A DNA stretch of 64,000 nt from Spirochaeta africana DSM 8902. Lineage in GTDB: Bacteria > Spirochaetota > Spirochaetia > DSM-27196 > DSM-8902. A model generated the notes under the pieces. That model was not told the DNA's origin and did no database searches. It saw only the letters and a program-made list of their open reading frames with translations. Below are positions 43,535 through 62,469 of the stretch, piece by piece. Positions within the stretch are counted from its first letter, which is position 1. Every line of letters begins with the position of its first letter. The translations under genes and the position numbers were made by a program. The stretch is from positions 1,116,001 through 1,180,000 of the forward strand of contig NC_017098.1 in assembly GCF_000242595.2 (NCBI RefSeq). Reading direction: 5' to 3'.

Positions 43535-43558
43535 CTGTTTCACTCCAATTGATTAAAA

Positions 43559-43816: not shown

Positions 43817-43840
43817 TTACGTCCTCCATGGTTTTGTAGC

Positions 43841-43868
43841 ACGAAACGGGTTGATGTAAACGTTAGCC
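43841..43868 (-). repeat. Half attC site at the array end
   Basis: ACGAAACGGGTTGATGTAAA followed by CGTTAGCC resembles the right half of the attC at 48014-49431, which reads CGAATCGGGTTGATGTACAA then GTTAAAA. The matching left half is missing, so this is the truncated downstream site of the RHH/PIN cassette and probably the distal end of the array. Confidence 0.45.
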
Positions 43869-43872
43869 GAAA

Positions 43873-44289
43873 TTATTTGAAAAATAAATTTTGAATCAAC
43901 TCTTTCCCTGGTAGTCTATATATATCAAAGTCAGAATCAATACTTATAATTTTGCGAATTTCTGTATGTTCTGCTGCTATAACCAAAGTTGCATCTGCAA
44001 AATCCATCGGCAGATCAGAATACTTTCTTGTTAATTCAATTATTCTCGAAATATGATTTTGTCTAATTTCAAATATAGTTATTCCATCACGCATTATCCA
44101 TTCAAGAAATGAGATTTGCACATTTATATTGAAGCTCAACATATGAGAGACTTCAGTGACAACTGCAGTTGTAGTTAATAAGTGAAACTTATTATCCTTA
44201 ATGAAATCCTTCACTTTGTAATGGTAGGCATCATCTCTGTCAAACAATGCGATGATTGGTCCAGAATCAATCAGTATGGAATTTATCAT
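43873..44289 (-). CDS. PIN-domain ribonuclease toxin (VapC-like)
   Basis: A 138-residue PIN domain protein: ILIDSGPIIALFDRDD (first catalytic Asp), the VVTEVSHML segment (Glu), LPMDFADATLVIAAE (two Asp) and IISIDSDFDIY (last Asp). These acidic residues form the Mg-binding nuclease site. It overlaps the upstream RHH antitoxin gene by 23 bp, the usual order. It is the toxin of a cassette-borne pair that can stabilise an array. Confidence 0.85.
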   Translation of the reverse strand: MINSILIDSGPIIALFDRDDAYHYKVKDFIKDNKFHLLTTTAVVTEVSHMLSFNINVQISFLEWIMRDGITIFEIRQNHISRIIELTRKYSDLPMDFADATLVIAAEHTEIRKIISIDSDFDIYRLPGKELIQNLFFK

Positions 44290-44518
44290 GCAATCTATCT
44301 TTTAATATACTCTTGTAATTCTTGGAGAGGTCATTTCTACCACTCCCATGTTGACCAAAAAGATCCTCACCCAGTTCATAGGAACTATAGTTCAGGTGTT
44401 CTTGCTCCATAAACATTTCCAGGGCATCTTTGATTATTTCTGATTTCGATTTTCTTCTTGCTTTGGATATAGACTGTAACTTTTTTTCCATGTCTGCAGG
44501 TAGACGAACCGTTGTCAT
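44267..44518 (-). CDS. Ribbon-helix-helix antitoxin
   Basis: An 83-residue protein. MTTVRLPADMEKKLQSISKARRKSKSEIIKDALEMFM is a ribbon-helix-helix DNA-binding domain; the C-terminal part wraps the toxin in such systems. The ATG at 44518 is chosen for GGAGG 6 bases upstream. It overlaps and is co-expressed with the PIN toxin, and probably autorepresses. Confidence 0.85.
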   Translation of the reverse strand: MTTVRLPADMEKKLQSISKARRKSKSEIIKDALEMFMEQEHLNYSSYELGEDLFGQHGSGRNDLSKNYKSILKDRLHDKFHTD

Positions 44519-44694
44519 AACCACCTCCGTAATACGAAGTGTAATACAAAAATTTGGACTTGTCAATTTTTCTTCAAGCGCGTTTAGCGCCTGGCTAACA
44601 TTTGCTTAACTTGCATTGCCGTGCCCGTAGGGCTTGGCGTGATTTTTGCGCATGCAAAAATCATGACAAAGGTAATGTCAAGTTGAAGTAGTTG

Positions 44695-47988: not shown

Positions 47989-48056
47989 TATTTCCTTTTT
48001 TGCGCGTAGCCCCATCTAACGACTGCATAACCCGTGAGCGCACAGCGCGAATCGGG

Positions 48057-49405
48057 GATAGTGTCCTGAAACGTTCGCAATTTGAAAAGTAAAAGGAGCC
48101 ATTGGATCCTCCGAAAGGTGTAGTAGCCAAACCATACCAAAGGAGAACACACAATGGCCCCACTCAAAGCTACCGCAGATTTCGAGAAACTTCTATCCCG
48201 TTTCATAGGTGAACAGGATCCTCTGCTTGAAATGCTCAAATGGATGACCGAACAGCTCATGCGCATTGAAGCTGAAAATAAAGCCGGTGCCGTGAAAGGC
48301 AAGCATGTCGCAAATCGGACGACTCATTTCAGCGGTTCTCGTGTCAGAAGATTCGATACCCGTCTGGGCACCATGTACCTCGTCGTTCCAAAGCTGCGCA
48401 AGGGCGGGTACATTCCCTTCTTTGTAACCGAGAAGAAACGCTCGGAACAAGCACTCCTACAGGTAGTGCAGGAAGCATTTATCAACGGTGTTTCTACCCG
48501 TAAGATCGATCGCCTCGCCAAGGAGCTGGGGATTGAATCCATATCAGCCAGCCAGGTCTCTGAAATTAATAAGGGGCTGGATGAACAGGTTCAGCAATTT
48601 CGCAACCGAGAGCTGGATTCAGAATATCCAGTTATCTGGATTGATGCACTGTATGAAAAGATACGCCATGGCCAGAGAGTGCAGAATGAAGCAGTGATGG
48701 TGGTTTGTGGCCTTAATTCTGCTGGAGAGCGCGAAATACTTGCTATAGAGCCCATGGAAACTGAATCAGAGGAAACATACGCCGACCTGTTTCAGCGCTT
48801 AAAACAGCGCGGTCTCAAGCATGTATGGCTTGTGGTATCAGATGCACACCAGGGATTGAAAAATGCAATCCGATCAGAATTTGTCGGCGCATGTTGGCAA
48901 CGGTGTAAAGTGCATTTCATGCGGAATGTCCTCGCCAAAGTACGCAGCAAACACAAGGAACAATTTGCAGAGCGATTAAAGCACATCTGGCTGCAGCCAG
49001 ATCAAGCTACCGCGCGAAAATACGCCAAGCAGCTTATGGATGACTGGGAAGACTCTTGCTCTGATGCAGTCGAAATCCTGGATTCCGGACTTGATGACTC
49101 ACTGCAGTTCTATGCCTTTGCAAAAATCGATGCACGGAAAATCTCGTCCACCAATATGCTGGAGCGATTGAACAAGGAAATCCGTCGACGATCAAAGGTG
49201 GTTGGCGTCTTTCCGTCCAGGGAGTCATACATCAGAATGGTCACCTGCTATCTGATAGAATACACCGAAGACTGGACAACCGGCAGATCGTACATTAAAA
49301 AGGAATCACTGGATGAACAGAAAGAATTCATCCTGAGAACGGTTGCGTAACCAGCCGGAGGCTGATGGCTCCAGGGTGAAATTGCAAACACGTTTGGACA
49401 CTATC
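48057..49405 (+). mobile_element. IS256-family insertion sequence, copy 1 (1349 bp)
   Basis: Terminal inverted repeats start GATAGTGTCC at both ends and continue to GCAATTT. Direct repeats GAATCGGG flank it (48049-48056 and 49406-49413). It contains one transposase gene. A second copy of identical length lies at 52604-53952. Confidence 0.92.
48154..49350 (+). CDS. IS256-family (mutator-type) transposase, copy 1
   Basis: A 398-residue DDE transposase. Catalytic residues lie in VIWIDALYEK (D), VVSDAHQGLKNA (D) and TNMLERLNKEIRRR (E). The C(2)H-like CWQRCKVHFMRN motif is characteristic of IS256/mutator transposases. It is complete and identical in sequence to the copy at 52.7 kb, so it may be active. 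Confidence 0.93.
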   Translation: MAPLKATADFEKLLSRFIGEQDPLLEMLKWMTEQLMRIEAENKAGAVKGKHVANRTTHFSGSRVRRFDTRLGTMYLVVPKLRKGGYIPFFVTEKKRSEQALLQVVQEAFINGVSTRKIDRLAKELGIESISASQVSEINKGLDEQVQQFRNRELDSEYPVIWIDALYEKIRHGQRVQNEAVMVVCGLNSAGEREILAIEPMETESEETYADLFQRLKQRGLKHVWLVVSDAHQGLKNAIRSEFVGACWQRCKVHFMRNVLAKVRSKHKEQFAERLKHIWLQPDQATARKYAKQLMDDWEDSCSDAVEILDSGLDDSLQFYAFAKIDARKISSTNMLERLNKEIRRRSKVVGVFPSRESYIRMVTCYLIEYTEDWTTGRSYIKKESLDEQKEFILRTVA

Positions 49406-49436
49406 GAATCGGGTTGATGTACAAGTTAAAACTCTT

Positions 49437-49910
49437 CTACTTATTTATTTCCTTGATCATCAACAAGCAGGGATTTTCTTCATCCCACATTTCCGTCAGT
49501 GTGATCAACTCCTTGAATCCCAGGCTTCGATAGAAGGCTGTTGTTCTTTTATACGGCTCATACTTCACATCATCGCTCAATGTTTTGACGATGGCAAATT
49601 CACATTTCTTCTCGATGAAATATTCTTCTGCGTTGTTACATAATAATCTTCCGATCCCGTTTCCATGGTGCTCGGCGGCAACACCCAGGACGAATATGTC
49701 ACCAGTTCGATTATGGTGGATTTTGACACTGATAAACCCTATGCACTCTTCACCAGCAAATGCAGCCCAATAAGGGAGTGATTTCACATCAGCAACATAC
49801 TGTTGGACAGCAGTTTCGTTTCCGAACCAGTCAGGTAAATTTTCCAAGATATCTTCAGTGTATTTTGATTTGAGTGCTGGATCTGTAATGTTTTCAATTC
49901 TGCAATTCAT
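49437..49910 (-). CDS. GNAT-family N-acetyltransferase
   Basis: A 157-residue acetyltransferase. Motif A is VLGVAAEHHGNGIGRLLCNNAEEYF (H-G-N-G-I-G), and the C-terminal segment is YKRTTAFYRSLGFKELI. The ATG at 49910 has AAGAGAG 4 bases upstream. It is a single-gene cassette flanked by attC sites at 48014 and 50021. Cassette GNATs often acetylate antibiotics or amino acids; the substrate is not predictable. Confidence 0.85.
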   Translation of the reverse strand: MNCRIENITDPALKSKYTEDILENLPDWFGNETAVQQYVADVKSLPYWAAFAGEECIGFISVKIHHNRTGDIFVLGVAAEHHGNGIGRLLCNNAEEYFIEKKCEFAIVKTLSDDVKYEPYKRTTAFYRSLGFKELITLTEMWDEENPCLLMIKEINK

Positions 49911-50020
49911 TGCTCTCTTAGTTTTTGTTCTGCTCTTCGTACAATCCACGTCATTAGTGCTGCACAAAAATCATTAATTGCTTCAGTAGACCAGAAAATT
50001 TTCCCCCGCCCGGAGGGACA

Positions 50021-50106
50021 TTTTAACGTCTCGCATCACTGGGCACAAAAAGCAGAGCGAGGAACGAGCGGCGCATTTGTGATCCGAGTGCATGCGTTTG
50101 TTAGCC
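50021..50106 (-). repeat. attC site (86 bp)
   Basis: Plus-strand cores TTTTAAC (50021-50027) and GTTAGCC (50100-50106). The arms pair imperfectly: CGCATGCACT against AGTGATGCG. It follows the PD-(D/E)xK cassette in transcription order. Confidence 0.65.
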
Positions 50107-50112
50107 AGCTCT

Positions 50113-51345
50113 CTATTTGTCTGATGGGATATCATATAGTTGTGTAGTGACAATTATTTCCTTTCCCGGCTCTGATTCTTTTACAAGAATGTAGCGAGAG
50201 TCCCCGTCGGCATGATGAAAAACTGTCTTACGATGTTCTGGTAACGACTCCATTGCTTCATGCATCTTCTGCCGCACAGCATTAGAGTCTTTTGTTCGGT
50301 TAAATATCATAAGGGCGCATTTTGAGTCGCGCCAAGTCAGATAACCGAGTAGTTGACCCACGGCTTCGTTAAATACTTTTTGCCCTCGCCAGAATTTACA
50401 CTCAGCAATAAATACATTCTTATTTTCTTCTCGTATGAGAATGTCTGTTTTTCCTGAGGCATTAAATGTTTCCCCAGTTGCCCCTCCTTCATAATGACCA
50501 TTTAATTGTAAAAGAAAATGATCCCGAATCGATTCTTCATCAAGCGACGCAAATGATGCAGGATTACGCTCTATAACCAACGACATACTCTTAATGATTT
50601 CCAATATGTGTTGGTATTCCTTTTCATCGAGCACAGGTTCGGGCTGATATGAGCCTGTTTCCACCGTGGGTTTTTTGGTTGGTTTCGTTCTTCGTTTTGC
50701 GGGGATCGTGAAAGTTGGTGATGCATCTGCCCTTTTTACGGGGATGCCCAACGCAGCAACAGCACCAGTAGTTGCCTGAGCCAGTTCTCTTTTCCTTTTT
50801 AGAGCTTGCTTCACCGTATTCGGAACAGAGTTATTGTGATTCTGTACATCTTTCTTAAGGTAGCCGACAGCATCTTCTAATGATTTTATATTTCGATTTA
50901 TTTCCCCCTTGAGCTGACCCGGGTTGGCTGAATCATCTGGAAAGCTTACACTCAAAATGATCTCTCCGCCTTTTACTTCTATGTCTGGGTAACCGCCCGA
51001 ACTCCATGTAGATGCGCGAACTCTCCAGAGCATAGGATCACCGTCAAATGGAATAGCTATATCAATCTTTGTCCCTCTTACAACAGCGCGCTCCCCAGGA
51101 AAAACAGCTCTATGGAAATCATGACTAACGTCAATCTGAGTACCTGTCTGGTTTTTAATATATTGCTGATCTGAATGAAGAACCAGAGGTTTAATTATCG
51201 CTTTATCAGTAAAATATTCCTCAAGCTCTGTTTCTGATGCTTTCAACACATATTCATTGTCCAGAGCCTTAATTTCATTTGACACTGAATCAACAACATT
51301 TCTGAAAGTAGCAAAGGTATCTCCCTCTCTAAACGGGTACATCAT
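50113..51345 (-). CDS. PD-(D/E)xK nuclease-like protein
   Basis: A 410-residue cytoplasmic protein. The C-terminal third holds a restriction-like nuclease core: SGKTDILIREENKNVFIAECKFWRGQK gives the D...E-x-K catalytic set (about residues 308-333), followed by a helix with EAVGQLLGYLTWRD. The N-terminal two thirds has a beta-rich domain (about 60-135) and a basic linker (KRRTKPTKKPT). It stands alone in a cassette and has no methylase partner. A role in nucleic-acid defence is inferred. AGAGGAA precedes the ATG. Confidence 0.7.
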   Translation of the reverse strand: MMYPFREGDTFATFRNVVDSVSNEIKALDNEYVLKASETELEEYFTDKAIIKPLVLHSDQQYIKNQTGTQIDVSHDFHRAVFPGERAVVRGTKIDIAIPFDGDPMLWRVRASTWSSGGYPDIEVKGGEIILSVSFPDDSANPGQLKGEINRNIKSLEDAVGYLKKDVQNHNNSVPNTVKQALKRKRELAQATTGAVAALGIPVKRADASPTFTIPAKRRTKPTKKPTVETGSYQPEPVLDEKEYQHILEIIKSMSLVIERNPASFASLDEESIRDHFLLQLNGHYEGGATGETFNASGKTDILIREENKNVFIAECKFWRGQKVFNEAVGQLLGYLTWRDSKCALMIFNRTKDSNAVRQKMHEAMESLPEHRKTVFHHADGDSRYILVKESEPGKEIIVTTQLYDIPSDK

Positions 51346-51361
51346 TGTTCCTCTTTCTTTT

Positions 51362-51418
51362 GGCTAACAGCGAGCTAACCAGCCGGCTTTGCCGGTCTGG
51401 TTGAGCGCAATGTTAAAC
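51362..51418 (-). repeat. attC site (57 bp) after toxin-antitoxin cassette 1
   Basis: Cores GGCTAAC and GTTAAAC on the plus strand. A near-perfect stem is formed by GCGAGCTAACCAG/CTGGTTGAGCGC around CCGGC-TTT-GCCGG. It shares this sequence with the sites at 52057 and 54110. Confidence 0.85.
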
Positions 51419-51425
51419 GTCTTTA

Positions 51426-51695
51426 TTAACTCACTTCTTTCAGGTTGCCCGTGACATATTTATGCAAGATACTCGTTACCAGGGTTTGATAAGGAATACC
51501 TTCCTCCATGGCTTTGGTTTTCAGTGCTTCTACATCACGTTTGGATATACGGATATTTATTCTATAGTCTTTTATGGCAGTCTTTTTTGCTGCATCTACC
51601 AGTTCCTGCTTTATATTCTCAAAGTTAGCCACTGACTTCCATTCACCGGCTTCTACGGATTCCATTAGTTCTTTTTCTTCTTTCACATTCATCAT
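51426..51695 (-). CDS. CopG-type antitoxin, cassette 1
   Basis: An 89-residue antitoxin. The acidic N-terminal half (EEKELMESVEAGEWKS) probably binds the toxin, and RINIRISKRDVEALKTKAMEEGIPYQTLVTSILHKYVTG is a ribbon-helix-helix domain. The family matches the CopG antitoxin of BrnT-like toxins. It overlaps the toxin gene by 4 bp (ATGA), with the toxin first as in brnTA. Nearly identical to the copy at 52121. Confidence 0.82.
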   Translation of the reverse strand: MMNVKEEKELMESVEAGEWKSVANFENIKQELVDAAKKTAIKDYRINIRISKRDVEALKTKAMEEGIPYQTLVTSILHKYVTGNLKEVS

Positions 51696-51973
51696 TTGTT
51701 CCCTCCAAGATCGTATACTTTGGTGTATTTTCTGCTTGGAAATAAAGTCTTCAAAAAATAGTCTCCATTATCTTCCTTTACACATGGTACACACACCGCA
51801 TAACCATCAATATCAACGATCATAATCAATTGGTTTTGATATTTTTCTTTGTTCGGATTTTCAAAGACATCGATCAAATGTCCTTCTTCTATGGCGACCA
51901 CAATCCGCTCAAACGAAATAGCTCTTTGGTTTTTGAGTTGCTTGTTTTTATCTTCATTCCAATAGAATGCCAT
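51692..51973 (-). CDS. BrnT-like toxin, cassette 1 (intact)
   Basis: A 93-residue protein with the BrnT-like order of a short helix with FYWNEDKNKQLKN, ISFERIVVAIEEGHLIDVFENP, and a beta sheet (LIMIVDIDGYAVCVPCVKEDNGDYFLKTLFPSRKYTK). BrnT toxins are RelE-fold ribonucleases. No Shine-Dalgarno is present and the predicted transcription start coincides with the ATG, so translation may be leaderless. The second cassette copy of this gene is disrupted by an IS. Confidence 0.72.
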   Translation of the reverse strand: MAFYWNEDKNKQLKNQRAISFERIVVAIEEGHLIDVFENPNKEKYQNQLIMIVDIDGYAVCVPCVKEDNGDYFLKTLFPSRKYTKVYDLGGNK

Positions 51974-51979
51974 TGTAAC

Positions 51980-52008
51980 ATGGTACGACTGTGTGTGCCT
52001 TATGTCAA
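51980..52008 (-). promoter_or_regulatory. Promoter of toxin-antitoxin cassette 1
   Basis: TTGACA (minus strand, 52003-52008), a 17-bp spacer and TACCAT (51980-51985). The cassette therefore carries its own promoter and does not depend on an integron Pc. Confidence 0.55.
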
Positions 52009-52056
52009 CGAGAAATGCAGAGTAGATTTCTCATTTGGTTGGGCGCCTTAGCGTCC

Positions 52057-52113
52057 GTTTAACAGCGAGCTAACCAGCCGGCTTTGCCGGTCTGGTTGAG
52101 CGCAATGTTAAAC
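52057..52113 (-). repeat. attC site (57 bp) after toxin-antitoxin cassette 2
   Basis: Cores GTTTAAC and GTTAAAC. The inner sequence is identical to the attC at 51362-51418. It separates the two near-identical toxin-antitoxin cassettes. Confidence 0.85.
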
Positions 52114-52120
52114 GTCTTTT

Positions 52121-52390
52121 TTAACTTACTTCCTTCAGGTTGCCCGTAACATATTTATGCAAGATACTGGTTACCAGGGTTTGATAAGGAATACCTTCTT
52201 CCATGGCTTTGGTTTTCAGCGCTTCTACATCACGTTTGGATATGCGGATATTTATTCTATAGTCTTTTATGGCAGTCTTTTTTGCTGCATCTACCAGTTC
52301 TTGCTTTATATTCTCAAAGTCAGCCACTGACCTCCATTCACCGGCTTCTACGGATTCCATTAATTCTTTTTCTTCTTTCTCATTCATCAT
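52121..52390 (-). CDS. CopG-type antitoxin, cassette 2
   Basis: An 89-residue antitoxin differing from copy 1 at only three positions in the first 25 residues (NEKEEKE, WRSVADFEN). The RHH domain is unchanged. Its partner toxin gene is split by an IS element, so this may act as a free antitoxin against toxin 1. Confidence 0.82.
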   Translation of the reverse strand: MMNEKEEKELMESVEAGEWRSVADFENIKQELVDAAKKTAIKDYRINIRISKRDVEALKTKAMEEGIPYQTLVTSILHKYVTGNLKEVS

Positions 52391-52603
52391 TTGTTCCCTC
52401 CAAGATTGTATGCTTTGGTGTATTTTCTGCTTGGAAATAAGGTCTTCAAAAAATAGTCTCCATTATCTTCCTTTACACATGGTACACACACCGCATAGCC
52501 ATCAATATCCACGATCAGGATCAATTGGTTTTGATATTTTTCTTTATTCGGATTTTCAAACACATCGATCAAGTGTCCTTCTTCTATAGCGACCACAATG
52601 CGC

Positions 52604-53952
52604 GATAGTGTCCAAACGTGTTTGCAATTTCACCCTGGAGCCATCAGCCTCCGGCTGGTTACGCAACCGTTCTCAGGATGAATTCTTTCTGTTCATCCAG
52701 TGATTCCTTTTTAATGTACGATCTGCCGGTTGTCCAGTCTTCGGTGTATTCTATCAGATAGCAGGTGACCATTCTGATGTATGACTCCCTGGACGGAAAG
52801 ACGCCAACCACCTTTGATCGTCGACGGATTTCTTTGTTCAATCGCTCCAGCATATTGGTGGAGGAGATTTTCCGTGCATCGATTTTTGCAAAGGCATAGA
52901 ACTGCAGTGAGTCATCAAGTCCGGAATCCAGGATTTCGACTGCATCAGAGCAAGAGTCTTCCCAGTCATCCATAAGCTGCTTGGCGTATTTTCGCGCGGT
53001 AGCTTGATCTGGCTGCAGCCAGATGTGCTTTAATCGCTCTGCAAATTGTTCCTTGTGTTTGCTGCGTACTTTGGCGAGGACATTCCGCATGAAATGCACT
53101 TTACACCGTTGCCAACATGCGCCGACAAATTCTGATCGGATTGCATTTTTCAATCCCTGGTGTGCATCTGATACCACAAGCCATACATGCTTGAGACCGC
53201 GCTGTTTTAAGCGCTGAAACAGGTCGGCGTATGTTTCCTCTGATTCAGTTTCCATGGGCTCTATAGCAAGTATTTCGCGCTCTCCAGCAGAATTAAGGCC
53301 ACAAACCACCATCACTGCTTCATTCTGCACTCTCTGGCCATGGCGTATCTTTTCATACAGTGCATCAATCCAGATAACTGGATATTCTGAATCCAGCTCT
53401 CGGTTGCGAAATTGCTGAACCTGTTCATCCAGCCCCTTATTAATTTCAGAGACCTGGCTGGCTGATATGGATTCAATCCCCAGCTCCTTGGCGAGGCGAT
53501 CGATCTTACGGGTAGAAACACCGTTGATAAATGCTTCCTGCACTACCTGTAGGAGTGCTTGTTCCGAGCGTTTCTTCTCGGTTACAAAGAAGGGAATGTA
53601 CCCGCCCTTGCGCAGCTTTGGAACGACGAGGTACATGGTGCCCAGACGGGTATCGAATCTTCTGACACGAGAACCGCTGAAATGAGTCGTCCGATTTGCG
53701 ACATGCTTGCCTTTCACGGCACCGGCTTTATTTTCAGCTTCAATGCGCATGAGCTGTTCGGTCATCCATTTGAGCATTTCAAGCAGAGGATCCTGTTCAC
53801 CTATGAAACGGGATAGAAGTTTCTCGAAATCTGCGGTAGCTTTGAGTGGGGCCATTGTGTGTTCTCCTTTGGTATGGTTTGGCTACTACACCTTTCGGAG
53901 GATCCAATGGCTCCTTTTACTTTTCAAATTGCGAACGTTTCAGGACACTATC
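52604..53952 (-). mobile_element. IS256-family insertion sequence, copy 2 (1349 bp)
   Basis: The same ends and length as copy 1, in the opposite orientation. Direct repeats CAATGCGC flank it (52596-52603 and 53953-53960). The DNA differs from copy 1 by only a few silent substitutions. Confidence 0.93.
52659..53855 (-). CDS. IS256-family transposase, copy 2
   Basis: 398 residues, identical in protein sequence to the copy at 48.2 kb. Intact DDE residues. Identity between copies implies recent transposition within this array. Confidence 0.93.
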   Translation of the reverse strand: MAPLKATADFEKLLSRFIGEQDPLLEMLKWMTEQLMRIEAENKAGAVKGKHVANRTTHFSGSRVRRFDTRLGTMYLVVPKLRKGGYIPFFVTEKKRSEQALLQVVQEAFINGVSTRKIDRLAKELGIESISASQVSEINKGLDEQVQQFRNRELDSEYPVIWIDALYEKIRHGQRVQNEAVMVVCGLNSAGEREILAIEPMETESEETYADLFQRLKQRGLKHVWLVVSDAHQGLKNAIRSEFVGACWQRCKVHFMRNVLAKVRSKHKEQFAERLKHIWLQPDQATARKYAKQLMDDWEDSCSDAVEILDSGLDDSLQFYAFAKIDARKISSTNMLERLNKEIRRRSKVVGVFPSRESYIRMVTCYLIEYTEDWTTGRSYIKKESLDEQKEFILRTVA

Positions 53953-54031
53953 CAATGCGCTCAAACGAAATAGCTCTTTCATTTTTGAGTTGATTGTTCT
54001 TATCTTCATTCCAATAGAATGCCATAGTAAT

Positions 54032-54060
54032 ATGGTACGACTGTGTGTGCCTTATGTCAA
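54032..54060 (-). promoter_or_regulatory. Promoter of toxin-antitoxin cassette 2
   Basis: TTGACA (54055-54060), a 17-bp spacer and TACCAT (54032-54037) on the minus strand, as in cassette 1. Confidence 0.55.
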
Positions 54061-54109
54061 CAAAGAAGTGCAAGACAGGCTAGTTCTTCTTTTGGGCGCC
54101 TTAGCGTTA

Positions 54110-54166
54110 GTTTAACAGCAAGCTAACCAGCCGGCTCTGCCGGTCTGGTTGAGCGCCTTGTTATAC
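54110..54166 (-). repeat. attC site (57 bp) after the DRT3 cassette
   Basis: The inner palindrome is the same as in the two toxin-antitoxin attC sites with one base change (CCGGC-TCT-GCCGG). Cores are GTTTAAC and GTTATAC. It marks the end of the reverse-transcriptase cassette. Confidence 0.82.
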
Positions 54167-54362
54167 CCTTTACATAATTTGTTTCCGGATTCCTTTTATT
54201 ACCATACCATCCGGCATTGGTTATTTGACAAGGCGAATTGATTCATGTGGGTCAATCACTGTGTCTTTGGCACCGTGAAGTGCCCAGATCGCTATATGAT
54301 CCACCTCCCACAATTAGAAAAATTTTCTACTTATGAGGCCGTTGCTTTTTTGGGGGAACTAC

Positions 54363-54390
54363 AAAAAAGGTGGCTCGCCAAGACCACCTT
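54363..54390 (-). terminator. Intrinsic terminator of the DRT3 cassette/ncRNA
   Basis: On the minus strand AAGGTGG, a 10-nt loop, CCACC and then six T residues. Longer-range pairing GCAACGG (54339-54345 complement) with CCGTTGC flanks it. Confidence 0.7.
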
Positions 54391-54480
54391 TGTGCAACGG
54401 AACCGGTTTTGATTCAGTTTCGCCGCCGCGCATGTGTGTGTGGCTGCATACAGCCATTAAACTGTCTGACGAAGCGCGTC
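54363..54480 (-). ncRNA. Structured RNA with an (AC) repeat, candidate DRT3 ncRNA
   Basis: About 118 nt directly after drt3b. From the 5' end: hairpin GACG-CGCTT-CGTC (54468-54480); a stem CAGTTT (54459-54464) with AAACTG (54415-54420) enclosing the hairpin TGGCTG-TATG-CAGCCA (54441-54456) and the tract CACACACACA (54433-54442); then a terminator hairpin GGTGG/CCACC with six U residues. A -10 box lies 6-8 bp upstream. DRT type 3 has been reported with an associated ncRNA; that this is it, and that the AC tract is a template, is inference. Confidence 0.55.
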
Positions 54481-54483
54481 TAT

Positions 54484-56610
54484 CTAGTATACCTCTTGGC
54501 TACGCTTCGCGTCCAGTTCTTTTCCAAAATCAAAGTCGTACCAATTAGTAAACCATTGCTGAGACCTGTTATTGCTATCGGTAAAAGTTATAATTTCGTC
54601 TACAAGCGAGGGATCGGTGACTTTAAATAATTCAAGAACTTTCCGCTTCCTATCATAGGGGACATACGGGCAAGAGATTAAATCGAACAAAAGGAAAATC
54701 ATCTCTGCATTTTTATGACAAGTTTCCGAACGCATTCGAATTCTCTCTAGAGCAGTATCAATAATGCGATTTCTCAACGTATTATACCGAACCTTATTCT
54801 TCATATAGAAAAGCGACACTGATATAGAAAAATAGTTTAATGATTTAATCGGCTCGGAATTAATTCCAGTATCTATTGCTTTTATTCCGAGATAAGTACT
54901 GAGCACACTCTCCTCTAACCAATAATCGCGACCAAGCTCTGAAAGTGCGATAAGCAAATAAAGGGTCTCTACTTGAGTTTGTTCAGAGGTTTCATTTTTC
55001 TTAAGAACAAAGCAAACATTATCAAAGATTTGCTTATGCACAGATTGCACCTGTTCTTGCTCAACATGTCCTGTCTTAAGAAACAGGATAACGACCCGGA
55101 GTATGCGACAAAGCCGTATGGTGGTATTCACTCGCGGCGATACAGAGTAGATAAAAAAGAGAAACTCTATGATGCCCTTAATAGCATTAATTAGCTTCGT
55201 CTGCGATCTAAGCTCTGGGCTGACTTTAAGATAGTTTGTAAATATCTTTTCGCACCGCCTCTCCACTATGGCAAGGCTGTAATTCAGCATATCTTTATAT
55301 TCTACGCCACATGTTTTGATGATTGTTTTAAAACTTGTTATTAGAGCATTGGCATTTACATGGACCGAACCCTTGGTTTGCACTTCTCCGCTATCGACCT
55401 CAACATCTTCCAAAGAAAATTTAATTCTTTCTTCAAGCAAACGGGCTATTTGCTGCTTTGCCATTGTGATCTCGGTAATAATAGGCTTTTCATAGGTTAT
55501 TGCTTTGGCCGTATTCAGGTATAGTTTGTATTTTTTAAGCGTGTGCTGAAGATCATCAACAATTTGTGTTGCATCACTTTCATCATTAACAAAGATAAAA
55601 TAATCATCAACATATCTGAAGATTTCATAATCACGTCCATGTAAAAGGGCTTCATTCTTTGCGGCAAGCTTATGCGAGACATCTCTATCAATAGCCTGAA
55701 GTATTACTTCAGCGAAAATGCGCGAAAATTCAGGCCCAATAATTATGCCATGAGTTTCACCATTATTCATATGATGCATTAATTTATCGAAGCGATCTGG
55801 AAATGTCCCGCCATTGAGGTCAAGGGACGCTTTTTGTGCATCCTTCCCAATTACTGCCCATCCTATTGAATGAGAGTATATGCTGTCGAAACACTTAGAA
55901 ATATCAAGCTTGAGTAGCTTATTATATTTTTTCTCAGCACGGTGATATCGATAGGATTCATAAAACTTATATATATTACTGTAATCTTTATAGACAAAAA
56001 ATGACTTAAGGCTCTCATATTCTTGATCAGACTGTTCAACAATCTCGGATTCAGTTGAGAGTCTCTCGAAGTGGAGCTTATCTTGATGGTATCGAACTCT
56101 CGATATTCTAGATGGTGCTCGAATCGTAAAAGAGCTAAGGGACGTATAGTAGAGAATGGTCTCTTTACACCGGTCGTAAAAATCGACTACTAAAAGTTGG
56201 CTCTTAGGATGCGGAATACATAACTCTCTAAATTCTGTCTCTTTATGCCTAACTTTATAACAAAAAGGTATCATAAACCGTTCTGGTTTTGGCTGTCTGT
56301 TCGACTTAGATATTCCTTTGTCGTCAATCTGGTATCGCACAAAATCTGTCAATTTTTCTCCGACATACCTCTGAACAGTCGTAATCCGGTTGGCATTGTC
56401 CGGCATCGCGAACAATAGCATTACGATTTTATCTAGTGCCTTATCTACTTTCAGCCACACAATGGCGTTATCCTCGAAAGAAATTCTATGACGCAATACA
56501 AACGAATAGAAATGACGATTCGAAAACGAAATAGGTATCTCAAACGGCAATACATCTGACAACAAACAGCGCTCTTTTTTATAGGGGAAGCGTACTTGCT
56601 TAATAGACAT
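54484..56610 (-). CDS. drt3b: Antiviral reverse transcriptase Drt3b (UG8-like)
   Basis: A 708-residue RT. The RT core spans about 140-390: LLKLDISKCFDSIYSHSIGWAV (motif with catalytic Asp), GIIIGPEFSRIFAEVIL, and FRYVDDYFIFVND (YVDD box). A long helical C-terminal half (about 400-708) has no maturase or endonuclease signature. The start ATG at 56610 has GGAGG 9 bases upstream and overlaps drt3a by 11 bp. A two-RT operon of about 450 and 700 residues matches antiphage DRT type 3. The gene is AT-rich and cassette-borne. Confidence 0.75.
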   Translation of the reverse strand: MSIKQVRFPYKKERCLLSDVLPFEIPISFSNRHFYSFVLRHRISFEDNAIVWLKVDKALDKIVMLLFAMPDNANRITTVQRYVGEKLTDFVRYQIDDKGISKSNRQPKPERFMIPFCYKVRHKETEFRELCIPHPKSQLLVVDFYDRCKETILYYTSLSSFTIRAPSRISRVRYHQDKLHFERLSTESEIVEQSDQEYESLKSFFVYKDYSNIYKFYESYRYHRAEKKYNKLLKLDISKCFDSIYSHSIGWAVIGKDAQKASLDLNGGTFPDRFDKLMHHMNNGETHGIIIGPEFSRIFAEVILQAIDRDVSHKLAAKNEALLHGRDYEIFRYVDDYFIFVNDESDATQIVDDLQHTLKKYKLYLNTAKAITYEKPIITEITMAKQQIARLLEERIKFSLEDVEVDSGEVQTKGSVHVNANALITSFKTIIKTCGVEYKDMLNYSLAIVERRCEKIFTNYLKVSPELRSQTKLINAIKGIIEFLFFIYSVSPRVNTTIRLCRILRVVILFLKTGHVEQEQVQSVHKQIFDNVCFVLKKNETSEQTQVETLYLLIALSELGRDYWLEESVLSTYLGIKAIDTGINSEPIKSLNYFSISVSLFYMKNKVRYNTLRNRIIDTALERIRMRSETCHKNAEMIFLLFDLISCPYVPYDRKRKVLELFKVTDPSLVDEIITFTDSNNRSQQWFTNWYDFDFGKELDAKRSQEVY
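54486..54515 (-). promoter_or_regulatory. Candidate ncRNA promoter inside the end of drt3b
   Basis: TGGACG (54510-54515), an 18-bp spacer and TATACT (54486-54491) on the minus strand. The predicted start at about 54478-54480 coincides with the first base of the GACG/CGTC hairpin. Confidence 0.4.
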
Positions 56611-57955
56611 GATTCCATACCTCCACTATTTCTGACAGATCCTTAGCTGAAAATTTATGATATTCTCTGGTTTTAAAACCGTTTTTGAACGACTGTTCGG
56701 ACAGCCTGTTTTGCAATTTGGGATTCGTTAAACCAGCTATTTTTTTAGATAGATATTTATCCAAAATTTGTAGATCATCAAGTTTTGTTAGCAATGAATT
56801 CGAAAAGAATATACCAGATACTACATTCTTTTTATTATTAACTAAACGTGTATTGCTAGTTAGAAAACGGACGCGCTTTTCTAGTAAAGCACGCGCTTTA
56901 TTTTCAGTCTTTTTAGGCTTATTCGCCTTCTTAGCATAAGCTGAAAAAGTCAAATCAATACGCTGCTTATATCGGTTTATCTTTTTATCAGTCATTCTCA
57001 GCTCAAGGGAACCAGAACCAATTTGATATTTGTATCCAAGGTATTGAACACAGGCCGTTGCACTTGGATCTGACTTAATAATCTGTGTTTTTTTCTTGTT
57101 TCTTGTTAATCCAAGTCTTTTAATTTCACTGACTATCAAACGCATAAAGGCCATTGTCCCTGTGTTAGGTGACGGACAAAATACAATAATAATATCATCA
57201 ACATAGCGAGCGTAATATAAGACGCCTGGATAGTCGCGAATAGTGCGATCAATATCACGCATATACAATTCAGCGAGATAAGCGCTTATGCCAATTCCTC
57301 TAGGCAATCCGACATCACTTCCAGTTATCGCGCTGTATTCAAATAGGATTCGTCGTATAATCTTTTTTGATGACAATGTAAGAAGCGGATCATCCCTTAA
57401 TTTTTTTAGTATATGTTTTCGAGGGATACTCTCATAGAAAGACGAAATGTCGGTTCTGAGGATATATTTTGGAAACCTATCTCCCAATAATTCACGTAGC
57501 TGGCATACGATCTGATGTCGATTTGCCTGTTTAACCTTATAGAGGCGACGAATATTATGCTGCACCTGTTTTAACGCAAAATATGTCGCCGCGTTATGTT
57601 CGGCAACATATACTTTTTTTGGCATTCCAACATCTACTTCCTTGATACCGAAAGAGAAGCCTTTCGAGTTTATTTGAGAACTAACCTTGTTCAACTCTTC
57701 ATTTAAAAGATCTTCTTTCTGCCCTTTTAGGTCTTCAATATTGGCTATGGCCGCTGCTTTTTTTTCTTCATACTCCTCTTCAGAGAGTGTTGATTTTTTC
57801 TGCTTTAGCTTCCGTAGTTTATTTTTTGCCACGTGGATTTCTTTGCTTATTTCTTCAATATCCGGGAAAAATTCTCCTTCGAGATAATTGCCTTTTCGAT
57901 TTTCAATATCAACGATCTTTAGAAAATTGGTGGCCGAGAAAGATTGATCAAGCAT
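56600..57955 (-). CDS. drt3a: Antiviral reverse transcriptase Drt3a (UG3-like)
   Basis: A 451-residue RT. An N-terminal coiled-coil-like segment (about 30-85, KNKLRKLKQKKSTLSEEEYEEKKAAA) precedes RT motifs NAATYFALKQVQHNIRRLYKV, YILRTDISSFYESIPRKHI (catalytic Asp), GLPRGIGISAYLAELYM and LYYARYVDDIIIVF (YVDD). No maturase domain X or endonuclease domain is present, so it is not a mobile intron RT. It forms an overlapping pair with Drt3b. The reported role of DRT3 is phage defence by RT-dependent DNA synthesis. Confidence 0.75.
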   Translation of the reverse strand: MLDQSFSATNFLKIVDIENRKGNYLEGEFFPDIEEISKEIHVAKNKLRKLKQKKSTLSEEEYEEKKAAAIANIEDLKGQKEDLLNEELNKVSSQINSKGFSFGIKEVDVGMPKKVYVAEHNAATYFALKQVQHNIRRLYKVKQANRHQIVCQLRELLGDRFPKYILRTDISSFYESIPRKHILKKLRDDPLLTLSSKKIIRRILFEYSAITGSDVGLPRGIGISAYLAELYMRDIDRTIRDYPGVLYYARYVDDIIIVFCPSPNTGTMAFMRLIVSEIKRLGLTRNKKKTQIIKSDPSATACVQYLGYKYQIGSGSLELRMTDKKINRYKQRIDLTFSAYAKKANKPKKTENKARALLEKRVRFLTSNTRLVNNKKNVVSGIFFSNSLLTKLDDLQILDKYLSKKIAGLTNPKLQNRLSEQSFKNGFKTREYHKFSAKDLSEIVEVWNHVY

Positions 57956-57965
57956 AATATCTGTT

Positions 57966-58088
57966 TTACCTCATAATTTTGTTATTGTAAATATTTTCAT
58001 AAAATCCAATAAGCGTTTTAGGTAATATCAAGGTGTGATCCTTTTGCCTTACACTATCAATTTCGTTCTTATCGGCTATCTCAAGCAT
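57966..58088 (-). CDS. 40-codon ORF upstream of drt3a
   Basis: A possible small peptide beginning MLEIADKNEIDSVRQKDH and ending YENIYNNKIMR. It ends 10 bp before the drt3a ATG. No ribosome site is visible and the region could instead be an untranslated leader. Included because its composition looks coding and its position would couple it to drt3a. Confidence 0.3.
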   Translation of the reverse strand: MLEIADKNEIDSVRQKDHTLILPKTLIGFYENIYNNKIMR

Positions 58089-58200
58089 ATTAAATAAACT
58101 TCAATCATATTAACACGTATTTTCTTCGACCAAGCACGTGACTTGTCAGTTTCTAAATTATCGTCCGCTTGTGTCTAAATTAGACTTACTACAACGATCG

Positions 58201-58270
58201 AATAGCGCCGTGCTGACCGCTAAATTGCTAGCGCAACGAGTAATTTATCCGTGTGCAGCAACTTGTTATG
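58201..58270 (-). repeat. Possible degenerate attC site
   Basis: A core-like GTTATGC (58264-58270) sits next to the end of the Cys-containing cassette gene, with a short internal inverted repeat GCTA/TAGC. The opposite core is not clear, so the site is tentative. The 57956-58200 stretch has no other recognisable element. Confidence 0.35.
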
Positions 58271-58272
58271 CA

Positions 58273-58932
58273 TTATTTTAACTGCGGCACGCCATCGATA
58301 TTTTCAAGCCATCTATTTATCGATGATTTTTGCTTCTCGGAGATTTTACCTGTTGAGACGATAGTGACTCTGACACCAACTAGAAAGTCAGTTTTTTCTG
58401 GCGGCAGCTTACTTACAGCCACATCGATCCAAAACAAGTAATTGTATATTCTTTGTAGCGCTGGTGGACTCAGTTTGTCTGGAGCTTTAGCCGCAATATT
58501 GTTTATATGCGTAATATCAGATTCTGAAAGCCCATAACTGTTGTACCTCTCATAATATTCTTTCAATACTGAATATGAGCATTTAAGTTCTTTTACAAGT
58601 TTATGCTCTCTTAACATCAGGTATTCAATCGCTCTTTTTTCAGGGTTGCCTTCGGATGTCCAACCTCGCCCTCCGGTACCACCACCTTCTCGATCATTTG
58701 TTGATAAAGTAAACTTTGTCAAATCAGGAATTCCAGATAATGCATCTTCCCCAGCATTATTCTTTGCACACGTCGGGCCAGCGTATAACAACTTTCCGGT
58801 CGCTATATTTTTTAAAACATATGCCTTAAGAGAAGTTAAAGCCTTCGAACAAAAATCACACTTTCTAGTAGTTTCAGTCAGATCACGTCTAATTACCTTA
58901 TATTTCACAATGCATTCCTGAATGTATAACAT
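58273..58932 (-). CDS. Cys-containing cassette protein, unknown
   Basis: About 219 residues. Near the N-terminus RKCDFCSKALTSLKAYVLKN and LLYAGPTCAKNNAG give CxxC and a later Cys, suggesting a small zinc-binding knuckle. A Gly-rich stretch (GGGTGGRGW) and a helical region follow. The C-terminal part (LSPPALQRIYNYLFWIDVAVSKL; FLVGVRVTIVSTGKISEKQ) is of unknown family. The start is uncertain: ATG 58932 lies inside the upstream attC; GTG 58908 has AGGA 8 bases upstream. Confidence 0.55.
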   Translation of the reverse strand: MLYIQECIVKYKVIRRDLTETTRKCDFCSKALTSLKAYVLKNIATGKLLYAGPTCAKNNAGEDALSGIPDLTKFTLSTNDREGGGTGGRGWTSEGNPEKRAIEYLMLREHKLVKELKCSYSVLKEYYERYNSYGLSESDITHINNIAAKAPDKLSPPALQRIYNYLFWIDVAVSKLPPEKTDFLVGVRVTIVSTGKISEKQKSSINRWLENIDGVPQLK

Positions 58933-59012
58933 TTGCTTAACTTGCATTGCCGTGCCCGAAGGGCTTGGCGCGATAATTGCGCATGCAATTATCGTGACAA
59001 AGGGAATGACAA

Positions 59013-60353
59013 GGTAGTGTCAAATATCTTGCGCAAATTCAGCGTCCATCAATCTGTGACCCTGCTGTTATGATGCCTGATGATCGTGATCGTACTCGAT
59101 CATCAGATCCATATTCAGATATTTCCGTTCACTCCATGTTGAGTTCGAGATGTGGCGCAGTCGTGCTGCAACCAGCATCAGTGCTGACTCACCATCAGGG
59201 AACGAACCGATTACACGTGTCCTCCTTCTGATTTCTCGCATGATTCTTTCAAGCCCGTTATTGGTCCTGATCCGTTTCCAGTGTTCGACCGGGAAATAAT
59301 AATACGAGAAGGTTTCTAATGCACCTTCTCGAACGATCTCCGCTGCTTTGGACAATTTCATTTCAATCAGTTTCTTCGCAATCTGGTCTTTCTTTCGGAC
59401 TGCCTCTTCCAGGTTTTCCTGGGCATGAATGGCCTTCAACATGGTTGCAACAGCTTTGACTTTTCCCTGCGGAACAAAGCTGAATACATTGCGGTAAAAA
59501 TGCACTACGCACCGCTGCCACCGGGAATCAGGAAAAAACTCTGGTATCGCTTCTACCAATCCCAGAGACTTGTCAGAGATAAACATCTCCACTGTTTCCA
59601 GTCCCCGGCCTTTCAAATAGCGGAGAAATCGCTGCCAGCTGTCTTTGTCTTCCTTGGTGCCTTCGGCAACCCCGATTATCTCCCTGAAACCATCCTGATT
59701 AACGCCTATGGCTACCAGAACGGATACATTGCGTACTTCACCAGCCCAGGATCGTTTCATCCAGATGCCATCAAGGTAGACATAGGTGTAGCGCTGCTTC
59801 AACGGCAGGTTGCGCCATTTTTCAATTTCTTCGTAGATTTTCTTATTGAGGTTGCTGATAGTTCCTGGTGAGACCTTGGCACCCCAAAGGGCTTCGGTGA
59901 TATCCTCGACACGTCTGACAGAAACGCCAGCCAAGTACATCTCTACCATTGCCTCCTCAACAGAGATCTCGCGTCGCTTATACCGTTCAATAATGGCAGT
60001 TTCAAACGTCACCTTCTTCAGCTTGGGAACCTGCAGATTCACTTCGCCTGCTTTCGTTAGCAGTTTCCTATCATAATGTCCGGCACGATACCCCGTTCGC
60101 TCAGAGCTGCGCTCATGTTTTTGCGCATTACACAGCTGTTCTGCTTCTGCCTCCAGCATAGCGTTCAAGGTTTCCTCCACCGTCTCCCTGACAAAATTAC
60201 CCAAATGGTCTTTGACTTCCTGCTCGTTTATCTCGATAATCTTACCCATGGGGTCCTCCTTCTGACTTGGTTTGGGTCGTACTTAATCAATCGTCAGATT
60301 GAGGACTTTCTTTTTATCGAAACTTGAAATTGCGCAAGATATTATACGTTATC
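59013..60353 (-). mobile_element. IS256-family insertion sequence, second type (1341 bp)
   Basis: The ends carry an imperfect inverted repeat with the common core AATATCTTGCGCAA. Target duplication AATGACAA flanks it (59005-59012 and 60354-60361). One intact transposase gene is inside. It is unrelated in sequence to the copies at 48 and 52.6 kb apart from family membership. Confidence 0.9.
59068..60249 (-). CDS. IS256-family transposase (second type)
   Basis: A 393-residue DDE transposase: TYVYLDGIWMKRS (D), MFISDKSLGLVEAI (D), RTNNGLERIMREIRRRTRVIG (E), and WQRCVVHFYRNVFS. Complete. The N-terminal half has the usual RTGYRAGHYDRKL segment. AGGAGG lies before the ATG. Confidence 0.93.
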   Translation of the reverse strand: MGKIIEINEQEVKDHLGNFVRETVEETLNAMLEAEAEQLCNAQKHERSSERTGYRAGHYDRKLLTKAGEVNLQVPKLKKVTFETAIIERYKRREISVEEAMVEMYLAGVSVRRVEDITEALWGAKVSPGTISNLNKKIYEEIEKWRNLPLKQRYTYVYLDGIWMKRSWAGEVRNVSVLVAIGVNQDGFREIIGVAEGTKEDKDSWQRFLRYLKGRGLETVEMFISDKSLGLVEAIPEFFPDSRWQRCVVHFYRNVFSFVPQGKVKAVATMLKAIHAQENLEEAVRKKDQIAKKLIEMKLSKAAEIVREGALETFSYYYFPVEHWKRIRTNNGLERIMREIRRRTRVIGSFPDGESALMLVAARLRHISNSTWSERKYLNMDLMIEYDHDHQAS

Positions 60354-60374
60354 AATGACAAGTTGGAGCACTTG

Positions 60375-60947
60375 TTAGACGAATCCTCTATTATTTAATC
60401 TATCTAAGATTATTTCTGCTGTAGCATCGACATCCAAATATGAATTATCTATTTTTAAATGCAATTCTGGATAGAAAAAATCATTTTCAGAATTTAACTT
60501 ATGTCTACGTTCAGATTCTAACAAAAAATTCTCTGATTCGGAGATGTTTCTTTTTGTCTTCTTTTCTATTAATCTTTCCTGTTCCTTGTTTCTTAATAAA
60601 CGGATATCTTGATCTGCTTCAAGTTCAACAAAAAATAAAGATTGTAGGTCAATACCTAATGATGACATGTACTCCATTAGTTCTTTGTGATCTTCTTCTT
60701 GATCCAAAGCCCAAACATAGGTAAATACAATTCCTTTTATTTTAGAATTTTTAATTTTTTCGAAAATTTGGTTTCGTATTTTAGTGATTAATGGCCCAAA
60801 AGCGTCATCGTTCCAGGTGAAAAAATTATAGACTAATTCGATAACCATATGATTATGAAACAGTTTGAATCCCAACATATCAGCAAGTTTTTTGCCTACA
60901 GCAGCTTTTCCTACAGCGGAGGGGCCGAAAATAACTACACATTTCAT
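60375..60947 (-). CDS. P-loop nucleotide kinase-like cassette protein
   Basis: A 190-residue protein. Walker A is VVIFGPSAVGKAAVGKKLA (G-P-S-A-V-G-K, with Ala where Ser/Thr is usual). FKLFHNHMVIELVYNFFTW and a helical lid (QERLIEKKTKRNISESENFLLES) follow, like shikimate/gluconate-type small-molecule kinases. The missing Ser/Thr after the P-loop Lys could weaken Mg binding. Its stop codon overlaps an attC core. Function unknown; kinases in cassettes can confer drug resistance. Confidence 0.7.
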   Translation of the reverse strand: MKCVVIFGPSAVGKAAVGKKLADMLGFKLFHNHMVIELVYNFFTWNDDAFGPLITKIRNQIFEKIKNSKIKGIVFTYVWALDQEEDHKELMEYMSSLGIDLQSLFFVELEADQDIRLLRNKEQERLIEKKTKRNISESENFLLESERRHKLNSENDFFYPELHLKIDNSYLDVDATAEIILDRLNNRGFV

Positions 60948-60991
60948 AACTAGAATTTCTTTCCTTTGTTTTTTTTGCGCATAGTGCGTCC

Positions 60992-61063
60992 GTCTAACGC
61001 TGCGCTCTGCGGCAAATTTGGAGCGCAGTGGAAAATTTGTCCGACAGCAGCGCTTTGTTATGG
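60992..61063 (-). repeat. attC site (72 bp)
   Basis: Cores GTCTAAC (60992-60998) and GTTATGG (61057-61063). The stem pairs GCTGCGCTC with GAGCGCAG internally, plus CAGCGC. It separates the YaaC-like and kinase cassettes; the YaaC-like stop codon follows immediately. Confidence 0.7.
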
Positions 61064-62092
61064 CTACGACACTCTGCCTGACGGCATGAACTCGTAACCA
61101 GTTAGCTCACAAGAGAGCTCGTCAATAAACTGTAACGGCGCGATACTTATAAACTCGGAAAGGAGCCAGTTGTACCTCCCTTCAAAGTGCTTTGCCAGCC
61201 GCTCCGGACTGTATCTCGCTAGCTCACTTAGCTTATGCATTGCTGCAAAAATTAATGTTATTGTTGACCGTTCAATAAAGCCTTCAACTCCGTTACTACG
61301 TTTTATGTACCAAAGCCTCTGAGGGCTGTGTATATAAAATAGATCTTTCCTCAAGGTCTTGTGATATTGCTGGTATCTCTGCAAGCTCTGTGTTTTTTGA
61401 GATGGTATCCACTGAAAGCGCCGTGTAGAACGAATTACAAAACGATCTGTGATGCCCTCATCTTTTTTGTAGTTGCTAGGAAGCCTATTCACAGTGTTCA
61501 TATTTGCATACTTTTTAACTAGCTCGGCAGAGAACCATGCCTCATTTGTGGTCCGAGAGCGAACTATTTCTGGATTTCTAATTGGTATGAATAGCTCTTT
61601 CGCAGAGTCATAAGATAGGTCGTATGCCCTATGAATAAATGGCATGTTGTACAGCAAGTGCTGAAGGCTATACTCTTCATTGTTTGCTGATTCGCCCAAA
61701 TGTCGGCAAAGCTCTGCAAGAATACCACCGCCTTTAAATTTAACTATTTCATTCGAAAGATATGTTTGACCGGTTCGCTGACGTCCGCTAACACCATGCC
61801 TGTCACTGAAAGTAATATTCTTAGCAAGCAAAAATGCTTTAGCTGCATTTAACATACAATAATAGGCAGTTAGAGGCGAAGAATTTTTAGGCAGCTCGGT
61901 TGTTGCATGGTAAAAATGCTGGGCTTGTTGCCAATAAAACAAGGCCTTTTTCTTGTGGCTCCGCTTAAACCACAACCCCATATAGTCCCAAGTGCTCGTT
62001 ACAAGAATTGTCTTCTCATTGAAACTTGGATTGCTAACTGCCTTGTGAATCGTAAGCGGCTTGTTCTTGTATTGTATTCCTCGATGTGCCAC
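61064..62092 (-). CDS. YaaC-like family protein (first visible cassette)
   Basis: A 342-residue protein with the YaaC-like pattern: STWDYMGLWFKRSHKKKALFYWQQAQHFYHATTEL, then PLTAYYCMLNAAKAFLLAK, LSNEIVKFKGGGILAEL and a C-terminal helical domain. YaaC proteins are of unknown function; HEPN-like helices with defence links have been suggested for related proteins (inference). The start is a GTG at 62092, which overlaps a GTTATAG core at 62093-62099. Confidence 0.65.
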   Translation of the reverse strand: MAHRGIQYKNKPLTIHKAVSNPSFNEKTILVTSTWDYMGLWFKRSHKKKALFYWQQAQHFYHATTELPKNSSPLTAYYCMLNAAKAFLLAKNITFSDRHGVSGRQRTGQTYLSNEIVKFKGGGILAELCRHLGESANNEEYSLQHLLYNMPFIHRAYDLSYDSAKELFIPIRNPEIVRSRTTNEAWFSAELVKKYANMNTVNRLPSNYKKDEGITDRFVIRSTRRFQWIPSQKTQSLQRYQQYHKTLRKDLFYIHSPQRLWYIKRSNGVEGFIERSTITLIFAAMHKLSELARYSPERLAKHFEGRYNWLLSEFISIAPLQFIDELSCELTGYEFMPSGRVS

Positions 62093-62469
62093 TATAACCC
62101 CAATGATTTAGTTGCCATAACATCTTCTCTCCCCAGTTTCCCCTGATCTGTGCGAACTGGTCGGGGACTGGTATCTCGTTTCCGGTGTACCAGTGCTACT
62201 GGTTCCATGAAATGGTTTCCGATCAGCTTTTGCGTATGTATGCGGGGCATATGCGGAAAACCTGTGTGTGTACTTCGGCAGCGGATACACCGGGGTCTGT
62301 ACGCGCGCGGTGGCGATTGCTGCCGGAAGCCGTAGCATGCGTGTCGGGGCGGGCGGCGGACCAGCCTCGGCCGTCGAGCACATACGTTGTACGTACCATC
62401 AGTGTAATGCAAAAAATGCAGAAATCAACCATGGATTTGGAGATAAATAGCACTATCGGTGGTGCATGG
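62093..62469. other. Junction between cassette array and backbone (possible attI side)
   Basis: About 375 bp without a recognisable gene. The plus strand has CTATAAC at 62093-62099 (GTTATAG in cassette orientation) where an attI or attC crossover is expected. GC content rises to backbone levels within about 100 bp. I translated all six frames around 62.1-62.45 kb and see no tyrosine-recombinase motif, so no integron integrase is encoded here. Confidence 0.45.

Follow-up and report, generated by a model that had tools for sequence, protein, structure and literature searches.

The locus described here lies on the minus strand of the window, as we will call the whole stretch of 64,000 nucleotides that was analysed (Spirochaeta africana DSM 8902, contig NC_017098.1, positions 1,116,001 to 1,180,000), and is composed of drt3a, drt3b and, directly 3' of the latter, a predicted gene for a non-coding RNA (ncRNA), in this order (Table 1). 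The second gene follows the first directly, with an overlap of 11 bases. Judged by their sequences, both proteins are DRT3 reverse transcriptases: against the curated equivalog models of NCBIfam, Drt3a reaches 405 bits with NF041747 (cut-off 200) and Drt3b 725.6 bits with NF041748 (cut-off 350). PADLOC agrees, giving Drt3a 404 bits against its own model, and this protein can be aligned with the Drt3a of PDB 9z6y. An AlphaFold2 model of Drt3b is fairly confident (pLDDT 81.7), and its nearest solved folds, among the matches listed, are those of DRT6, UG15, DRT4 and AbiK; these matches, from a structure library reaching to April 2026, include no DRT3 entry. Two other assignments were considered and rejected. 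For DRT10, the UG17 model gives Drt3a 114.5 bits, to be set against the 404 bits of its own model, and no SLATT domain was found with Pfam among the neighbouring proteins scanned; for a retron, the retron_St85_RT model gives 46 bits (cut-off 235), and there is no Rfam retron match in the window.

Upstream of drt3a, positions 58273-58947 of the minus strand encode a protein of 224 amino acids with cysteine pairs, which has no Pfam, PADLOC or NCBIfam match. This reading frame was discarded as a third conserved gene of DRT3, with no tblastn match in the fetched DRT3 loci that were searched. The wider surroundings, from 42 to 62 kb of the window (42000-62000), have a G+C content of 37-48%, compared with 55-61% in the rest, and contain, besides several insertion sequences and a group II intron, SIR2-like, PDC-S54 and DRT3 genes; this A+T-rich region is probably an acquired defence island. 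The genome has no Spo0A, and the idea of a spore-forming Bacillota as host was therefore given up. The group II intron RNA and its maturase occupy 44792-46589 (plus strand). Two transposase genes of the IS256 family (Mutator), at 48154-49350 (plus) and 52659-53855 (minus), are inverted copies with 2 differences in 1197 bases. They enclose the genes of a GNAT protein and a homolog of PDC-S54 as well as CopG/BrnT-like genes, and the whole looks like a composite element. The CopG-type antitoxin gene is present there twice in nearly identical form (51426-51973 and 52121-52390), and its toxin-like partner resembles BrnT, below the Pfam cut-off.

Table 1. Genes, promoter-like hexamers and predicted RNA elements of the DRT3 locus (positions of the window)
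Feature	Positions	Strand	Remarks
drt3a	56600..57955	-	RNA-templated reverse transcriptase (UG3), YVDD motif, 451 aa; NCBIfam, PADLOC, PDB alignment
drt3b	54484..56610	-	protein-templated, protein-primed reverse transcriptase (UG8), 708 aa, last residue Y708
-35-like hexamer TGGACG	54510..54515	-	inside drt3b, 18 nt upstream of TATACT
-10-like hexamer TATACT	54486..54491	-	over the Val707-Tyr708-stop codons; codon choice
Predicted compact DRT3 ncRNA	54363..54480	-	about 118 nt; ends placed by the promoter (5') and the terminator (3')
P1, 5' strand CGCGC	54474..54478	-	closes template loop; RNAalifold; homologous helix in 19 of 21 compact-form loci
P2 hairpin GGCTG-TATG-CAGCC	54442..54455	-	directly 5' of template; candidate template boundary; RNAalifold, MFE fold
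Putative template tract ACACACACA	54433..54441	-	nine bases, beside P2, inside P1; (AC)3+ in 51 of 51 loci
P1, 3' strand GCGCG	54427..54431	-	one base past template; RNAalifold
P5 hairpin GGCG-A-AACTG ... CGGTT-C-CGTT	54396..54424	-	covariation in six relatives; RNAalifold
P4 3' hairpin AAAGGTGG...CCACCTTT with T run	54363..54391	-	structural element and intrinsic terminator

The initial annotation, made from the window alone, had proposed that a DRT3 ncRNA is encoded just downstream of drt3b and in the same direction, and that its ten-base AC repeat could serve as the template of a GT-repeat DNA. The letters are indeed on the minus strand beside the two DRT3 genes, and the repeat is there in full at 54442-54433. 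Its nine-base part ACACACACA, which corresponds to the AC template found downstream of drt3b in DRT3, occurs twice in the window, where 0.39 occurrences would be expected; the second copy, at 62263-62271 of the minus strand, stands opposite an open reading frame and is probably due to chance.

The flank of drt3b was then compared among relatives, as the same annotation had suggested. Loci with drt3b were gathered from GTDB genomes, IMG/VR, plasmids and E. coli genomes, giving 52 loci, 51 of them with a readable 3' end. The locus left aside, L064, has its drt3b split by an insertion sequence and no 3' end; its genome belongs to the same order as a Roseobacter relative. Also left out were entries that are the window itself (L001, L002, L032), second copies of counted loci (L003, L023-L029, L056, L057, L068-L071) and other reverse transcriptases, namely L072 and L073 (89-93 bits) and the weak matches L004-L008. 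A sense-strand repeat of at least three AC units lies within 350 nt of the drt3b stop codon in all 51 testable loci, which are not independent, as they include near-copies such as L009/L010, L037-L039, L040/L055, L047/L053, L060/L065 and L014/L074. By the same test, the antisense repeat (three or more GT units) is found in 2 of the 51, and the AC repeat appears in 25 of 254 blocks of 350 nt inside drt3b coding sequence. In an earlier subset, the tract was present in 40 of 40 loci, whereas 500 first-order resamplings averaged 4.9 and never exceeded 13. Two loci that encode near-copies of solved E. coli proteins, L041 (PDB 26cz, 1493 bits) and L037 (PDB 9z6y, 1338 bits), served as positive controls and both have the tract; in L036 and L041 there is more than one tract in the flank, and one was chosen by hand.

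The protein side of the system is conserved as well. In E. coli, Drt3b makes poly(dCdA) with protein residues acting as the template (PMC13174585, as far as its accessible text goes), and we take PDB 26cz to be this enzyme because the residue numbers used in the paper (E22, R71, R241, Y666) fit that entry. In the alignment, E22, R71, D182, R241, D278 and Y666 of 26cz correspond to E24, R128, D236, R297, D335 and Y708 of the window protein, and E26 and R253 of the 9z6y protein align with E24 and R297, so that the gate Glu, the gate Arg and the C-terminal priming Tyr of DRT3 are all present in the window. The gate Arg is found in 40 of 40 rows of the Drt3b alignment, and the gate Glu position, among the 36 rows that reach it, is occupied by Glu in 29 and by Asp in 7. 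Asp instead of the gate Glu is seen in long-form proteins (as defined below) of L018, L045, L046, L047, L049, L050 and L054, where the AC tract is still there; the available part of PMC13174585 reports that the E22D change in E. coli Drt3b partly retains activity. In all the loci covered, which span at least Pseudomonadota and Bacteroidota and two clades with a deep split between them, the AC template and the Drt3b gates are thus kept together, and therefore it is probably the poly(GT/AC) product itself, beyond mere DNA synthesis, that is the target of selection.

What we define here as the compact and the long form of DRT3 are those loci whose template begins up to +67 and from +98, respectively, after the drt3b stop codon. 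The observed starts range from +24 to +67 in the compact form, with the window tract at +41, and from +98 to +261 in the long form; L020 (+101), first grouped with the compact loci, was then counted as long. In a tree of 41 Drt3b rows of more than 600 amino acids each, a single branch with support 100/100 separates 17 compact-form from 24 long-form rows, and the window protein falls on the compact side, both solved systems on the long one. The longest tract of the flank measures 7-10 nt in the 21 compact-form loci (mean 8.6) and 6-8 nt in the 30 long-form loci (mean 6.9). The portion of the DRT3 literature accessible to us does not describe the compact form, nor did it yield a published experiment on any member of the window's Drt3b clade.

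The fold of the RNA was approached through an alignment of six relatives (the window, L009, L011, L012, L013 and L031, without L010, which nearly duplicates L009), for which RNAalifold returns four main helices: P1, P2, P5, and P4 with the terminator. In these six, pairing holds in 97.9% of all cells of the structure, a value reached by none of 500 shuffles, and P5 has four pairs changed on both sides. The other three helices are almost invariant in these closest RNAs, and their covariation comes only from wider relatives: in 12 sequences the P4 stem and the outer pair of P1 covary, the latter occurring as C-G, U-A, A-U and G-C among compact-form loci. A helix at the homologous place of P1 exists in 19 of the 21 compact-form loci (all but L016 and L030) as 10 distinct helices; when the 3' strands were permuted 5000 times, 3 of the permutations did as well, in a test devised after the pattern had been seen. 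A free search for the longest template-closing helix in the 51 loci gave results little above those of shuffles: of the 21 compact loci 1, and of the 30 long ones 3, reached p<=0.05. P2 is absent from L022. Taken alone, the trimmed RNA (54480-54363) has a minimum free energy of -39.9 kcal/mol with all four helices (z -2.1; 9 of 200 shuffles did equally well); a longer piece around it adopts a different minimum-energy fold (z -1.48).

This comparison also allows the stems proposed from the single sequence to be revised. The perfect 6-bp hairpin, TGGCTG/CAGCCA, is in place and contains P2, and the clean intrinsic terminator was likewise confirmed, as a hairpin at 54391-54366 followed by T's (one terminator found by the scan, 0.4 expected). 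Of the hairpin suggested at the 5' end, the letters GACG/CGTC exist, but they compete with the conserved closing helix CGCGC/GCGCG, which is the one that the comparative fold picks. The stem CAGTTT/AAACTG is in turn made of truly complementary letters (54464-54459 and 54420-54415), but none of its pairs is changed on both sides in the six relatives. As a telomerase-like pseudoknot crossing P1 around the template it was rejected, with no covarying pair, 87% of cells paired and shuffles doing equally well, whereas the rival hairpin P5 covaries. AAACTG belongs to P5 instead, and the proposed stem probably does not form, unless as an alternative.

A covariance model built from the six relatives, R1, scores 141.9 bits at the window site, the next best match in the 3.29-Mb genome being 10.9 bits. 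Over 45 sources, a part of the fetched loci that includes the window and mostly excludes near-copies, its 15 matches at E<=0.01 all lie at drt3b 3' flanks, 6 of them by construction; up to E 1 it matches no long-form flank of that set. The tract is kept in those long-form flanks although the compact model finds nothing there, and around it, in the six relatives, there is a nearly invariant block despite diverged drt3b codons.

These observations bear on two readings that would deny the tract its role. The simplest would be that only an operon terminator and leftover sequence are present, with the AC repeat incidental; the intrinsic terminator is indeed a normal one, but we give this almost no credence given that the tract, its position and its strand are conserved across the 51 loci, that the block around it is near-invariant where only 19 of 331 codons of invariant residues are identical, and that P5 covaries. 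The other would see the RNA mainly as a scaffold joining Drt3a and Drt3b, and the tract as a binding site for protein or DNA, for instance by pairing with the GT product, rather than as a template in the window's clade. A scaffold role of the ncRNA in a 6:6:6 complex is described in the available text of the review PMC13314766, and the experiments that we found in the accessible literature come from outside this clade. Against it, a change of the tract in E. coli DRT3 abolishes both poly(dTdG) and defence (PMC13174585, accessible text), and the tract persists in 51 of 51 loci while the surrounding RNA becomes unrecognisable between clades, so we regard it as very unlikely. By analogy with E. 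coli, where templating of poly(dTdG) by Drt3a on the AC tract has been demonstrated (PMC13174585, same text), it is very probable that Drt3a uses the AC repeat as its template and copies it into GT-repeat DNA.

The transcription of this RNA would depend on a promoter placed over the end of drt3b. The promoter-like TATACT of the initial annotation is present (Table 1), but a promoter scan alone is at chance level, with one site found and 1.2 expected in shuffles; it is the choice of codons that speaks for it. The pair of hexamers keeps its place and its 18-nt spacing in 20 of the 21 compact-form loci, the exception being L016, where the Tyr is followed by another residue. For the Val that precedes the final Tyr, GTA is used in 19 of the 21, where each gene's own Val usage predicts 4.65, and in 11 of 12 hand-picked lineages (expected 2.6, P 4e-7), compared with 3 of 9 in the long form (expected 2.2). 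In two loci the -10 box is weaker (TTTACT and TTTATT), and there a perfect TTGACA stands at unchanged spacing. Finally, 4 of 11 invariant tail residues have codons identical in all six relatives, far above the gene-wide proportion given above (P 0.002). The DNA at the tail of drt3b is thus constrained beyond the protein, and a promoter would be the simplest reason.

The alternative is that the RNA is a processed tail of the drt3ab mRNA and that TATACT merely encodes Val-Tyr-stop, which would be compatible with a template role. The -10-like box does overlap codons of conserved residues, and the chance-level scan fits this reading too. The excess of GTA in the compact form but hardly in the long one, the perfect TTGACA of the two loci with weaker -10 boxes and the identity of the tail codons argue against it, and we hold it to be unlikely, even though it retains a real share of our expectation. 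Under the promoter reading, which we prefer, transcription would start close to position 54480.

It is quite possible, and in our judgement evenly poised, that DRT3 comprises two lineages of old standing whose template RNAs differ in their architecture, the compact RNA being about 115-120 nt long, with a template longer on average and a promoter of its own whose -10 box is the codon pair encoding the priming tyrosine of Drt3b. If this were the case, a single piece of DNA would provide the protein primer from which one strand starts as well as the promoter for the RNA that templates the other. The compact RNA would also offer a smaller system for structural and template-swap work, and a recognisable RNA gene for annotators, at a site where Rfam release 15 gives no flag.

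Taking these elements together, we are confident that this RNA belongs to a DRT3 antiphage system as its ncRNA, serving as template for the poly(dTdG) of Drt3a next to the poly(dCdA) of Drt3b, with the resulting repeat double-stranded DNA driving defence. Probably transcribed from the promoter over the last drt3b codons, the ncRNA would fold into P1-P2-P5-P4 and be bound by Drt3a, with P1 holding the template loop. Drt3a would then read the exposed ACACACACA from 3' to 5', making GTGT..., stop at P2, which we infer to be the template boundary, slip back by whole repeats and copy again, yielding long poly(dTdG). Drt3b, primed on Tyr708, would add C and A in turn, with Glu24 and Arg297 in place of a template, to give poly(dCdA), and the annealing of both strands would produce the repeat DNA that drives defence.

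For two E. coli systems, this mechanism, with its products and their defensive effect, has been published before; what is added here are the fold, the corrected stem, the support for the promoter, the conservation of the tract in all tested loci and the separate compact clade. The first of those systems (Drt3b PDB 26cz; Wang et al. 2026 preprint, PMC13174585) shares with the window the order drt3a-drt3b-ncRNA, the AC template and counterparts of the gates E22/R241 and of the priming Y666. It differs in its long-form ncRNA, with ACACAC at +128 in the near-identical L041 compared with +41 in the window, and in its Drt3b, since the window protein shares about 31% identity with that of L041 and lies on the opposite side of the 100/100 split. 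The RNA model of that work, according to its accessible text, was built on the system itself and its near relatives (subgroup 9), and 32 unique hits and 41 systems are reported. The second (PDB 9z6y; Deng et al. 2026), known to us through the available parts of PMC13314766 and PMC13213688, which also credit it with the tract as template for GT-repeat DNA in E. coli DRT3, has the same parts, its E26/R253 being E24/R297 of the window, but is again of the long form, with the tract at +123 in L037 and a Drt3b to which the window protein is about 30% identical.

Also close are the compact DRT3 systems of Alphaproteobacteria (L009-L013), E. coli (L014, L074, L075), Bacteroides (L016) and Zymomonas (L015), which have the same Drt3b clade and RNA layout and a template at +40 to +67, with nothing essential that differs from the window; the Drt3b of compact relatives is up to 66% identical to that of the window. 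The ncRNAs of DRT10 and DRT9 and telomerase RNA, as presented in the accessible portion of PMC12632851, resemble this RNA in the short template beside a stem-loop marking its 5' boundary and in the addition of repeats by slipping back, whereas DRT10 and DRT9 belong to other reverse transcriptase families, the former with a SLATT gene and variable templates and the latter with a poly-U template.
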